From contig NZ_LPUY01000078.1 of the NCBI RefSeq assembly GCF_001518015.1, positions 1-64,000 of the forward strand: DNA of 64,000 bases. The letters run 5' to 3'. Shown here piece after piece: positions 20,425 to 51,181 of this stretch; position 1 is the stretch's first letter; every line of letters starts with the position of its first letter. The position numbers were made by a program, and so were the translations under genes. This DNA is from Tritonibacter horizontis. Its GTDB lineage: Bacteria; Pseudomonadota; Alphaproteobacteria; Rhodobacterales; Rhodobacteraceae. Under the pieces are notes generated by a model that made no database searches, was not told the origin of the DNA, and worked only from the letters and a program-made list of their open reading frames with translations.

Positions 20425-20501
20425 TGGCGGACCGAGGAGGATTCGAACCCCCGACCCCTTGATTCGTAGTCAAGTACTCTATCCAGCTGAGCTATCGGTC
20501 C
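20425..20501 (-). tRNA. tRNA-Arg (anticodon ACG)
   Basis: A 77-nt gene with encoded CCA. The acceptor stem GGACCGA pairs near the 3' end, the D arm is GCTCAGCTGGATAGAGT, the anticodon stem is CTTGA/TCAAG with loop CTACGAA (anticodon ACG), and the T arm is GTCGGGGGTTCGAATCC. It reads CGU and, with inosine, CGC/CGA arginine codons. An identical copy lies about 1.9 kb to the right on the same strand. Confidence 0.97.
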
Positions 20502-22364: not shown

Positions 22365-22441
22365 TGGCGGACCGAGGAGGATTCGAACCCCCGACCCCTT
22401 GATTCGTAGTCAAGTACTCTATCCAGCTGAGCTATCGGTCC
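22365..22441 (-). tRNA. tRNA-Arg (anticodon ACG), second copy
   Basis: Identical over all 77 nt to the copy at 20425-20501, including the encoded CCA, with matching flanking bases (GGGAAG before and CACT after on the plus strand). The two copies are direct repeats on the same strand flanking rsgA. Confidence 0.97.
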
Positions 22442-49149: not shown

Positions 49150-50232
49150 TCACCCCGCAAGGCGCGTGTTCTGTCTGCGCCGGTGTTCGACCGCTTCGGC
49201 CAGCTTCCGCAGTTCGGCCTCGGTTTTGTCCCAGCCCATACAGCCGTCGGTCACCGATTGGCCATAGGTGAGTTTGCTCAGATCACCGTCCTTGGGCAGG
49301 TCCTGACGTCCGTGAACCAGATGGCTTTCGATCATCACGCCGGTGATGCGCCCCTCACCGGCGGCCATCTGGCCCGCGACATCTTCCAGTACAACGCCTT
49401 GTTTGGCTGGATTTTTTTCAGAATTGGCATGGCTGGCATCAATCATGACCTGGCCGCGAACCCCGTCTGCCTCCGCCGTTTTACAGGCGCTGTCGACACT
49501 GGCCGCATCATAGTTGGTGCCGCCGCCGCCACGCAGAATGATATGGCAATCCGGGTTGCCCGCCGTTGCCGCAATCGCCGCAAGCCCAGATGGGGCGAGC
49601 GCCATGAAATGATGCGGCGTCGCCGCTGAACGCACCGCATCAATCGCGATCTGCACATTGCCGCGGGTGCCGTTTTTGAACCCGACAGGACAGCTCAGCC
49701 CGGAGGCCATCTCGCGGTGAATTTGGCTTTCGGTGGTCCGCGCGCCAATGGCCGCCCAGCTGACCAGATCAGCGATGTATTGCGGCACCGAGGCATCCAG
49801 GAATTCGGTCCCGACGGGAAGCCCCATTTCGTTCAGCTCCAGACACAGCTTGCGGGCCACCGACAGCCCCTTGTTGATGCGAAAAGACCCATCCAGGTCC
49901 GGATCGTTGATCAGCCCCTTCCACCCCGCAATAGTACGCGGCTTTTCGAAATAGACCCGCATCACGATTTCCAACTGCCCTCCCAGCTCAGCCTTCAGCG
50001 GCGCGAGGCGACGGGCGTAGTCTATCGCAGCCTCTGGATCATGCACGGAACAGGGGCCGACCACGACAATCAGCCGGTCGTCCGCCCCTTGCAGGATTTT
50101 CTGAATGTTGGCGCGAGAATTCAAAACGGTCTCGCGGGCATCGCTGGTCAGCGGATGCTTCACCGCAAGGGCTTCTGGGCAGATCAATTCCTGCATATTG
50201 GTAATCCGGAGGTCATTTGTCGGGGTCGTCAT
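49150..50232 (-). CDS. aroG: 3-deoxy-7-phosphoheptulonate synthase, class I (AroF/G/H type)
   Basis: The 360-residue enzyme condenses phosphoenolpyruvate and erythrose 4-phosphate, the first step of aromatic amino acid synthesis. Motifs include VVGPCSVHDPEAAIDYA, MRVYFEKPRT, GFKNGTRGNV and DASHANSEKNP, as in the E. coli-type class I enzymes. An attenuator with an aromatic-rich leader peptide precedes it, so expression should respond to charged tRNA-Phe/Trp/Tyr. The gene symbol denotes the family, not a specific isozyme. Confidence 0.95.
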   Translation of the reverse strand: MTTPTNDLRITNMQELICPEALAVKHPLTSDARETVLNSRANIQKILQGADDRLIVVVGPCSVHDPEAAIDYARRLAPLKAELGGQLEIVMRVYFEKPRTIAGWKGLINDPDLDGSFRINKGLSVARKLCLELNEMGLPVGTEFLDASVPQYIADLVSWAAIGARTTESQIHREMASGLSCPVGFKNGTRGNVQIAIDAVRSAATPHHFMALAPSGLAAIAATAGNPDCHIILRGGGGTNYDAASVDSACKTAEADGVRGQVMIDASHANSEKNPAKQGVVLEDVAGQMAAGEGRITGVMIESHLVHGRQDLPKDGDLSKLTYGQSVTDGCMGWDKTEAELRKLAEAVEHRRRQNTRLAG

Positions 50233-50280: not shown

Positions 50281-50310
50281 AAAAAAACCGCCCTGGTCCC
50301 GGGGCGGTTT
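50281..50310 (-). terminator. attenuator terminator in the DAHP synthase leader
   Basis: On the minus strand AAACCGCCC pairs with GGGCGGTTT around an 8-nt loop, and the stem runs directly into a tract of seven T. It lies about 50 nt before the synthase start codon and after a leader peptide, so it can stop transcription before the structural gene. The 5' arm (CCGCC) can alternatively pair with GGCGG in the leader coding region (50366-50370). Confidence 0.85.
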
Positions 50311-50342
50311 GGTGCGGTATTCTAATGCTTCTGGTATTTTAT

Positions 50343-50420
50343 TCAGAAACGCGAAGACCCTCCGTCCGCCATGTGGCGCGGATAAAAGTAATACCAGAAC
50401 TGGGCAAACTGTTGGGTCAT
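50343..50420 (-). CDS. aromatic-rich leader peptide of the DAHP synthase attenuator
   Basis: A 25-codon open frame (ATG at 50420, TGA at 50345-50343) encodes MTQQFAQFWYYFYPRH and nine further residues. Eight of 25 residues are Phe, Trp or Tyr, six in an unbroken FWYYFY run. Directly after the run, CCGCGCC (50381-50375) can pair with GGCGG (50370-50366). A ribosome stalled on the aromatic codons would cover the first arm, freeing GGCGG to pair with the terminator's 5' arm. This is the standard 1:2, 2:3, 3:4 attenuator logic. No strong Shine-Dalgarno site is visible. Confidence 0.8.
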   Translation of the reverse strand: MTQQFAQFWYYFYPRHMADGGSSRF

Positions 50421-50462
50421 GCGCGAAACGCTAGCGGAGATTCGGGCCTCTGTCGAGACCCT

Positions 50463-50468
50463 ATTGTA
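50463..50468 (-). promoter_or_regulatory. putative -10 element of the DAHP synthase leader
   Basis: TACAAT on the minus strand lies 43 nt upstream of the leader-peptide ATG. No good -35 hexamer is seen at the usual distance, so the promoter is weak or needs an activator. It would give a leader of about 220 nt. Confidence 0.4.
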
Positions 50469-50497: not shown

Positions 50498-51181
50498 TTA
50501 CCCCCTGGGGCGGCCCGTGCGTGCGTCCGGCGACGTTGCTTTCGGCATCGCTGCACCACGCCCATACCCCGGTCGACCTGTACCGCTTTGGGCGACATCG
50601 AAATTCCAGACGATAATCAAATTGGTCACCAGCGCCCCCATGAACGAATAGATCAGCTGGGCCGGTGTCAGAACCAGCGCCGCAGCGGCGAAAACCGCCG
50701 CATCAACAAGCAGTTGAAACCAGCCCGCCTTGAACCCGGTGCGCTGTTCGATGATGATGCCCACAATCGTCATGCCACCGGCCGAGGCGTTGTGACGAAA
50801 GATCGCGATCAAACCGGCCCCGTTGCATAGCCCGCCCAGCAGCGCCGCCGCTGCCGGATGCAACAGATCGAAGGCCACATACTGCGGCAGGGTTTGCGCC
50901 CCGGCCGAGATCCCCACGACCACCGCCACAGTGCGCAGCGCAAAGGCCGGACCGCGTTTGATCCAGGCCAGAACCAGGAACGGCACCCCGATCCCGAAGA
51001 AGAGCACACCAAAATCCACGGGCAGCACGTAGGACAGCAACAACGCCATCCCAGCAGTCTGCCCGGTGACCAGCCCCGCTGATTTCAGAAAGACGAGGCC
51101 AAGGCTGCACATCAGCACCCCAAACAGCAACCCCTGGAGGTCGAACAACGAAAGCGCAGGTCTGGAGCTGGGCAAAGCCAT
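50498..51181 (-). CDS. YitT-family membrane protein
   Basis: A 227-residue protein with about five to six hydrophobic helices. The family core QGLLFGVLMCSLGLVFLKSAGLVTGQTAGMALLLSYV near the N-terminus and HNASAGGMTIVGIIIEQRTGFKAG in the middle are typical of YitT/DUF161-type proteins, whose function is not established. It is followed by the DAHP synthase leader on the same strand with no terminator seen, and is divergent from the epimerase gene. Confidence 0.82.
   Translation of the reverse strand: MALPSSRPALSLFDLQGLLFGVLMCSLGLVFLKSAGLVTGQTAGMALLLSYVLPVDFGVLFFGIGVPFLVLAWIKRGPAFALRTVAVVVGISAGAQTLPQYVAFDLLHPAAAALLGGLCNGAGLIAIFRHNASAGGMTIVGIIIEQRTGFKAGWFQLLVDAAVFAAAALVLTPAQLIYSFMGALVTNLIIVWNFDVAQSGTGRPGYGRGAAMPKATSPDARTGRPRG

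Follow-up and report, generated by a model that had tools for sequence, protein, structure and literature searches.

A predicted ribosome-mediated attenuator with a conserved aromatic leader peptide precedes the class I DAHP synthase gene of Tritonibacter horizontis

Organization of the leader region

The window, a 64,000-nucleotide stretch of the Tritonibacter horizontis genome, carries on its minus strand a gene for a class I DAHP synthase (3-deoxy-7-phosphoheptulonate synthase) lying downstream of a YitT-family gene. The interval between these genes contains a leader (Table 1) that a preliminary description, made from the letters alone, had proposed to be a ribosome-stalling attenuator. Inspection of positions 50420-50281 on the minus strand revealed a 25-codon frame, a hairpin situated right after a run of aromatic codons and an intrinsic terminator that ends 48 nt before the ATG of the DAHP synthase gene (50232), close to the 50 nt or so first reported. 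The frame with its six consecutive aromatic codons, the CCGCGCC/GGCGG hairpin directly after them, and the CCGCCC/GGGCGG stem whose T7 tract completes the terminator (50310-50281) are all present as originally described. The region thus combines a short frame with clustered codons for the pathway products and an intrinsic terminator between that frame and the gene, as leader-peptide attenuators do.

Table 1. Features of the leader region and its flanking genes in the window
Feature	Position	Strand	Basis or remark
YitT-family gene upstream of the leader	50498-51181	-	same strand as the leader
TACAAT	50468-50463	-	-10-like box of the preliminary description
-35 element TCGACA	50451..50456	-	in most relatives TCGACA or GTGACA; ACA fully conserved in the alignment of 31 Rhodobacteraceae leaders
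-10 element TAGCGT	50428..50433	-	17 nt after the -35 element, 7 nt before the ATG
Predicted transcription start, A of the leader ATG	50420	-	from spacing; preceding base C
Leader peptide frame MTQQFAQFWYYFYPRHMADGGSSRF	50343..50420	-	25 codons, ATG to TGA
Control codons F8 W9 Y10 Y11 F12 Y13 (FWYYFY)	50382..50399	-	conserved aromatic run
Segment 1, TCCGCGCC	50375..50382	-	5' arm of the 1:2 hairpin
Segment 2, GGCGG (50366-50370) and CGGA (50361-50364)	50361..50370	-	pairs with segment 1 or segment 3
GGAGG resembling a Shine-Dalgarno sequence, within the leader frame; function uncertain	50359..50363	-	anti-SD scan
Stop-codon hairpin, GTTTCTG (50350-50344) with CAGAAGC (50333-50327)	50327..50350	-	fold p 0.015
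Segment 3, AAACCGCCC	50302..50310	-	terminator 5' arm, partner of segment 2
Segment 4, GGGCGGTTT	50285..50293	-	terminator 3' arm
T7 tract of the intrinsic terminator	50281..50287	-	sequence
Class I DAHP synthase, regulated gene	49150..50232	-	PF00793 E 1.1e-92; TIGR00034 and NF009395 over cut-off

No other stretch of six aromatic codons besides FWYYFY occurs in the window, whose six frames comprise 127,996 codons and otherwise contain one run of five and three of four. When the 156-nt leader was shuffled, 12 of 200 shuffles folded as well (z -1.55); the folding energy of the whole leader taken alone is weak evidence, and conservation is strong evidence.

Two further observations concern the surrounding sequence. 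Located 3' of the stop codon, AATACCAGAA (50329-50340 of the plus strand) repeats exactly, in inverted orientation, the TTCTGGTATT of the aromatic run, and the plus strand therefore reads FWYF there; near relatives share this inverted copy in part. Elsewhere in the window, two tRNA genes (20428-20501 and 22368-22441, minus strand) lie approximately 1.9 kb apart and have identical Rfam scores.

A conserved promoter close to the leader start codon

The preliminary description had also pointed to TACAAT as a -10-like box. The letters are there, but they do not mark the promoter: within the 60 nt upstream, TACAAT occurs in one of 34 Rhodobacteraceae leaders, that of the window itself, and TCGACA-17-TAGCGT is conserved instead. 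The alignment of 31 Rhodobacteraceae leaders displays TCGACA or GTGACA, a spacer of approximately 17 nt, TAGCGT or a variant of it, and 6-7 nt up to the ATG; 26 of 34 leaders have exactly TAGCGT at 6 or 7 nt from the ATG. A scan for the best two-box promoter places its end 6-8 nt upstream of the ATG in 55 of 58 alphaproteobacterial leaders, compared with 7.1% of 5000 random 60-mers, the starts of two of the 58 (L083, L097) having been set by hand at an upstream in-frame ATG that fits the promoter spacing better. Moreover, the -1 base is C in 41 of 42 non-redundant alphaproteobacterial promoters. Betaproteobacterial and gammaproteobacterial leaders exhibit the 6-8 nt spacing in just 7 of 32 cases. 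Because the conserved promoter lies 7 nt before the ATG, the transcript probably starts at the AUG of the leader frame and would be leaderless.

The spacer between the -35 and -10 elements (50434-50450, minus strand) holds GAATCTCCGC, which is common to many Rhodobacteraceae leaders. Its conservation exceeds the apparent needs of a promoter spacer, and it is a possible operator. As a genome-wide motif, the spacer has one exact copy in its own genome and eight with at most two mismatches, against four for the reversed control.

Distribution of the leader among relatives

The class I DAHP synthase gene was detected in all 18 genomes of the genus, and the leader in all 17 with readable upstream DNA, the gene of the remaining one (G156) being cut at a contig edge. 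In the family, the gene occurs in 17 of 394 sampled genomes, each of which has the leader. The leader is also carried in Leisingera, at loci L001 and L002. Comparison of the upstream regions of orthologous genes, along the lines suggested at the outset, placed the aromatic frame at the same position in every one of the 34 Rhodobacteraceae leaders examined. Among the 27 distinct 78-nt frames, a count that leaves aside frames of other length (L083, L088, L089, L097, L110 and L113), W9 is invariant, codon 11 encodes Phe in 16, Tyr in 10 and Ser in one, and codon 12 encodes Phe in 14 and Tyr in 13. The Phe/Tyr swaps at codons 11 and 12 suggest that selection maintains an aromatic codon and not a particular peptide. 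A terminator is present in all 79 leaders, these having been chosen by their aromatic frame. Rare aromatic codons are not strongly favoured: 55 distinct alphaproteobacterial frames contain TTT and TTC in a ratio of 89:70 and TAT and TAC in a ratio of 121:36, the comparison being with six window genes, where TTT makes up 51% and TAT 58%.

Several loci need individual mention. L106 was dropped since its gene is cut at the contig start, and so was L127 of genome G608 (E 9.9e-4, 25% identity over 118 aa); the upstream region of L118 is cut off, and the leader of that genome lies on another contig (L174). At L120 (G437:C34:4012-5076), the class I DAHP synthase gene has one in-frame TAG and the leader is present. 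In L123, the terminator is separated from the start of the DAHP synthase gene by roughly 100 additional bases that include inverted repeats.

We built a covariance model, R1 (137 positions, 6 pairs), from 52 alphaproteobacterial leaders. In its own genome, R1 gives one strong full match of 106 bits, followed by a 21.7-bit match to a terminator only. Searches of the class and the phylum were conducted with the stricter filters of Infernal. Across 385 genomes of the class, the 14 full matches of at least 50 bits correspond to the 14 genomes with a class I DAHP synthase, a count that leaves out G608 (E 9.9e-4) and in which 12 genomes, that of the window included, had contributed to R1 training while G594 and G683 had not; 13 of these matches adjoin a class I DAHP synthase gene, and that of G594 lies at a contig edge. 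The search of 398 Pseudomonadota genomes gave 44 full matches scoring 36 bits or more, each of them beside a class I DAHP synthase gene; three had been in the training set and one is the window itself. Furthermore, among the best 80 named loci R1 finds 47 (13 in training), identical to the 47 picked by eye. Judging by genus names, we take the 47 to represent Rhodobacteraceae, Rhizobiales, Phenylobacterium, Burkholderiales and Xanthomonadales; the leader therefore also precedes class I DAHP synthases outside the bacterial group considered in the preliminary description. The 33 loci of the best 80 that lack an R1 match include relatives from Vibrionaceae, Enterobacterales, Rhodocyclales, Chromatiales and Neisseriales, and one of them, L047, has only 61 nt of upstream sequence.

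Below 36 bits, R1 recovered three further class I DAHP synthases (L240, L241, L245). No new target gene emerged among the matches fetched below this score, which otherwise consisted of pheA and trpE leaders, bare terminators or chance matches. The leaders at three loci of one gammaproteobacterial genus (L237, L238, L239) resemble the DAHP synthase leader in general layout; R1 gives them 34-35 bits, and L238 is followed by a gene for a chorismate mutase.

Association with the class I enzyme

The genome of T. horizontis holds both types of DAHP synthase, class I on contig C78 and class II at C74:154165-155475, and the class II enzyme is found in 58 of 61 family genomes, this one included. The switch belongs to the class I enzyme, the second DAHP synthase found in few family members, because none of 30 class II loci (30 of the 58 were fetched) carries an aromatic frame together with a terminator in the 450 nt before the class II domain match, or a full-length R1 match above 8 bits. 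Near-matches at class II loci comprise a frame only (L140, L156) or a weak terminator only (L152). A switch on the class I copy beside a switchless class II copy may define when extra flux is wanted.

Alternative pairings of the leader RNA

The GGCGG of segment 2 was described initially as able to pair with either neighbouring C-rich segment, giving mutually exclusive forms, and conservation, geometry and folding support this in silico. The 31-sequence alignment shows double-sided changes at two pairs of the terminator (3:4), in seven cells overall; 0 of 500 shuffles reached seven cells and 24 of 500 reached two pairs. Flanking terminator pairs also covary in 74 distinct leaders, where the cores were located by pattern and only the flanks count. 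Hairpin 1:2 is nearly invariant and does not covary, its pairs forming in 94.9% of cells (31 sequences); at L085 the outer stem is shifted and, by eye, still complementary. The compensatory changes in the stems that had been put forward as a check were thus found in the terminator, but within Rhodobacteraceae neither 1:2 nor 2:3 provides any, their cores being nearly invariant there.

For the antiterminator (2:3), we compared the pairing of each leader's own arms with that of swapped arms, in permutations that ignore relatedness. Own arms pair better in 79 distinct leaders (0 of 20000 permutations as good), within the alphaproteobacteria (25/20000) and within the beta/gamma set (18/20000); the advantage is absent within Rhodobacteraceae (11392/20000) and within the other alphaproteobacteria (3362/20000). 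The antiterminator has 5 bp against the 9 bp of the terminator, and therefore must act kinetically. A clamp helix between the bases preceding the terminator and those following the T tract was considered and rejected, own pairs being no better than swapped ones (10183/20000).

The distance between control codons and segment 2 is mostly fixed. An 11-nt distance from the last aromatic codon to the start of GGCGG is seen in 28 of 34 Rhodobacteraceae and 13 of 24 other alphaproteobacterial leaders, that is, in 41 of 58 alphaproteobacterial leaders, and in 5 of 32 from the beta/gamma set, or 46 of 90 overall. The stop codon ends 28 nt after the start of segment 2 in 53 of 90 leaders. Two leaders in which segment 2 had been anchored wrongly by pattern (L116, L120) were kept in the covariation, arm-swap and spacing counts and taken out of the folding scans.

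Around the stop codon, folding of the spacer reaches p<=0.05 in 13 of 33 Rhodobacteraceae leaders, in 2 of 20 from other alphaproteobacteria and in 3 of 31 from the beta/gamma set. Its arms pair better with their own partners than with swapped ones in Rhodobacteraceae (59/20000, or 385/20000 after thinning to 20) and in the other alphaproteobacteria (48/20000); eight Xanthomonadales give a weak signal (964/20000), and the remaining, mostly betaproteobacterial set none (11454/20000). Such a hairpin would probably make the loop enclosed by 2:3 shorter, and would be melted by a ribosome that has reached the stop codon.

A Shine-Dalgarno-like signal recurs within the frame: in 38 of 58 alphaproteobacterial leaders, the best anti-SD window has its end 15 nt upstream of the stop codon's last base. 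Binding to the anti-SD exceeds that of synonymous controls, with a mean of -8.84 over 55 distinct frames versus -7.56 (sd 0.28) in 40 control sets, and GGA accounts for 57 of 105 Gly codons in alphaproteobacterial leaders versus 9% in six window genes. The GGAGG overlaps the CGGA of segment 2, and structure may therefore explain part of this signal.

Predicted effect of the stall position and amino acid specificity

The transcript ending after segment 3 was folded in a thermodynamic model in which a ribosome with an assumed footprint blocks 30 nt. In the window leader, the probability of the antiterminator, P(2:3), is 0.002 without a ribosome and 0.000 with a ribosome at the stop codon; it rises to 0.96-1.00 with the A site at Y10, Y11 or F12, and is 0.20 at W9 and 0.02 at Y13. 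For Y11 and F12, P(2:3) is at least 0.94 for all footprint edges from 12 to 16 and at 25 or 37 C, and Y10 is on from footprint edge 14.

The full pattern, off alone, off at the stop codon and on at an aromatic codon, is displayed by 24 of 34 family leaders versus 91 of 408 shuffles that keep both cores in place. The other 10 of the 34 depart from this strict pattern; five family leaders are predicted to be on without a ribosome and six to be on at the stop codon. A stall-dependent, exclusive antiterminator, as required of an attenuator of this type, is thus found in silico, clearly in the window leader and in those 24. Across 88 leaders from all groups, the scan discriminates less well, mean P(2:3) being 0.30 both without a ribosome and with one at the stop codon. 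With a ribosome placed 4-9 codons upstream of the last aromatic codon the medians likewise exceed 0.9, and past the run the value falls to 0. In this model, the scans support release within or before the aromatic run and closure after it, with sharp codon specificity predicted for some leaders only, that of the window among them.

The mixture of Phe, Trp and Tyr codons had led to the proposal that the leader responds to all three products of the pathway, which the model does not support. Because the antiterminator opens only at Tyr10, Tyr11 and Phe12 in the folding scan, we infer that the window leader senses Tyr and Phe, with a weak response to Trp, and does not respond equally to the three. 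Equal sensing of the three aromatic amino acids, in which Trp9 would count as much as the Tyr and Phe codons, seems to us unlikely. The invariance of W9 would agree with equal sensing, and some relatives (for example L086, L100-L105 and L107) are on at W; these, however, are also on at the preceding non-aromatic codons, and in the window leader P(2:3) at W9 stays at 0.08-0.26 over all footprints and temperatures tried, well under the values at Y11 and F12. With the assumed footprint, moreover, a ribosome waiting at codon 9 falls short of segment 1.

Proposed mechanism and alternative explanations

We consider it very probable, from sequence comparison and modelling, that the leader is a ribosome-mediated transcription attenuator placed before the class I DAHP synthase gene, with a leaderless start and stalling at Tyr and Phe codons; the core of the initial proposal is well supported by conservation, geometry and folding. 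Transcription would start at the leader AUG, and a ribosome would load on the leaderless RNA. With sufficient charged tRNA, this ribosome would pass the aromatic codons and reach the stop codon, and hairpin 1:2 would re-form behind it. Segment 2 would then be unavailable, the 3:4 terminator would form and RNA polymerase would stop after approximately 140 nt. When Tyr- or Phe-tRNA is short, the ribosome would stall at codons 10-12, covering segment 1 and leaving segment 2 free. The 11-nt distance between the run and segment 2 means that a ribosome halted towards the run's last codons can cover segment 1 and still spare segment 2. Free segment 2 would pair with segment 3, no terminator would form, and the DAHP synthase gene would be transcribed. 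The transcription start, termination in the cell and the starvation response are what we infer here.

On a broader and rather improbable view, the leader would be an ancient cassette travelling with class I DAHP synthase in Alpha-, Beta- and Gammaproteobacteria, with Tyr and Phe interchangeable by codon position, a stop-codon hairpin gating the loop in alphaproteobacteria, and a leaderless messenger of approximately 140 nt whose RNA or peptide also acts in trans.

A different possibility, to which we give little credence, is a role chiefly in trans for the leaderless RNA released by termination and for its peptide, as with S. meliloti rnTrpL and peTrpL, attenuation being secondary. The predicted leaderless architecture does resemble that of rnTrpL as presented in the parts consulted of PMC7298713 and PMC10117765, and the peptide is conserved in its C-terminal half (PRHMADGG...F); that conservation, however, may stem from segments 1 and 2 and from the stop-codon hairpin.

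The presence of the YitT-family gene upstream on the same strand (50498-51181) could suggest an ordinary terminator of that gene beside a chance aromatic frame, with the DAHP synthase transcribed from another promoter; this is highly improbable, as conservation extends jointly to promoter, frame, control codons, segment 2 and terminator, and the strong model matches found sit with class I DAHP synthase in three proteobacterial groups. Equally hard to credit is a metabolite- or protein-binding riboswitch controlling the terminator in place of ribosome stalling: the leader is structured and has a terminator, but no Rfam family exceeds its gathering score here, the control codons keep a mostly fixed distance from segment 2 in alphaproteobacteria, and Phe and Tyr codons swap at fixed positions.

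The attenuator reading may explain, in simple and testable terms, how many proteobacteria regulate entry into aromatic biosynthesis, a step for which no curated RNA regulator was found in them; with a single covariance model, the switch is picked up in each of the 14 alphaproteobacterial genomes sampled that have a class I DAHP synthase. It predicts leaderless translation of the leader and, by a codon-position rule taken from the folding model, control of this copy by Tyr and Phe but not Trp.

Comparison with known systems

Neither the RNA nor any of five leader peptides gave a match over threshold to a known leader family in Rfam, NCBIfam or Pfam. The best Rfam match is the pheA-type RF01859 Phe_leader, which aligns over its full model length but at 23.9 bits against a gathering score of 55, and which belongs to a different gene. 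A search of openly accessible papers found no record of this leader in Proteobacteria, and the portions consulted of PMC2965389 and PMC4448311 hold nothing on it. The suggestion that the leader is undescribed is hence not contradicted by the open literature, but the kind of system is already known.

Other DAHP synthase genes have been linked to attenuation. The consulted part of PMC8632094 describes the uORFC-13-1 motif of Acholeplasma, a candidate uORF before an apparent terminator and an aroF DAHP synthase gene; set against the window leader by this description, it differs in belonging to another phylum, in having a ribosome-binding site and in containing at least one Phe codon. The same part cites a 1980 paper hypothesising attenuation of E. 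coli aroF, and reports a cysS leader in Rhodobacterales. Attenuators at DAHP synthase operons are predicted for Vibrio (PMC1173090, Table 7) and Shewanella (PMC2659441, Table 3) in the tables consulted. R1 detected no leader at the Vibrio, Enterovibrio and Photobacterium loci L015, L033, L055 and L060, which may represent another paralogue.

The trpL attenuator of Sinorhizobium meliloti is likewise alphaproteobacterial, with an rnTrpL RNA that starts at the AUG of the leader frame (PMC7298713 and PMC10117765, parts consulted); for the window leader such a start is predicted. The S. meliloti leader has Trp codons only and controls trpE(G), whereas that of the window has Phe, Trp and Tyr codons and precedes a DAHP synthase gene. 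The window leader lacks the consecutive Trp codons before trpE of the S. meliloti type, having a single Trp codon ahead of a DAHP synthase gene. A Rhizobium-type trpE leader with NWWWAR (L242) scores 31.8 bits with R1, and the 90 residues downstream of it match TrpE models below whole-protein cut-offs.

By function and position, the window leader is like aroR of Corynebacterium glutamicum, which encodes a Phe-Tyr-Phe peptide before aroF and in which ribosome stalling reportedly raises read-through on Phe limitation, with no response to Tyr (PMC11802643 and PMC4046766, parts consulted); both place an aromatic leader peptide before a DAHP synthase gene. As far as these parts go, aroR differs in coming from an actinobacterium and in having three aromatic residues, compared with six contiguous codons including an invariant Trp in the window. 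Set against aroR, the RNA layout of the window leader is common across Proteobacteria. The mechanism class is known from C. glutamicum aroR and S. meliloti trpL, and the window leader belongs to a conserved family of this known kind, with a corrected promoter and the prediction that this copy responds to Tyr and Phe rather than to all three amino acids.
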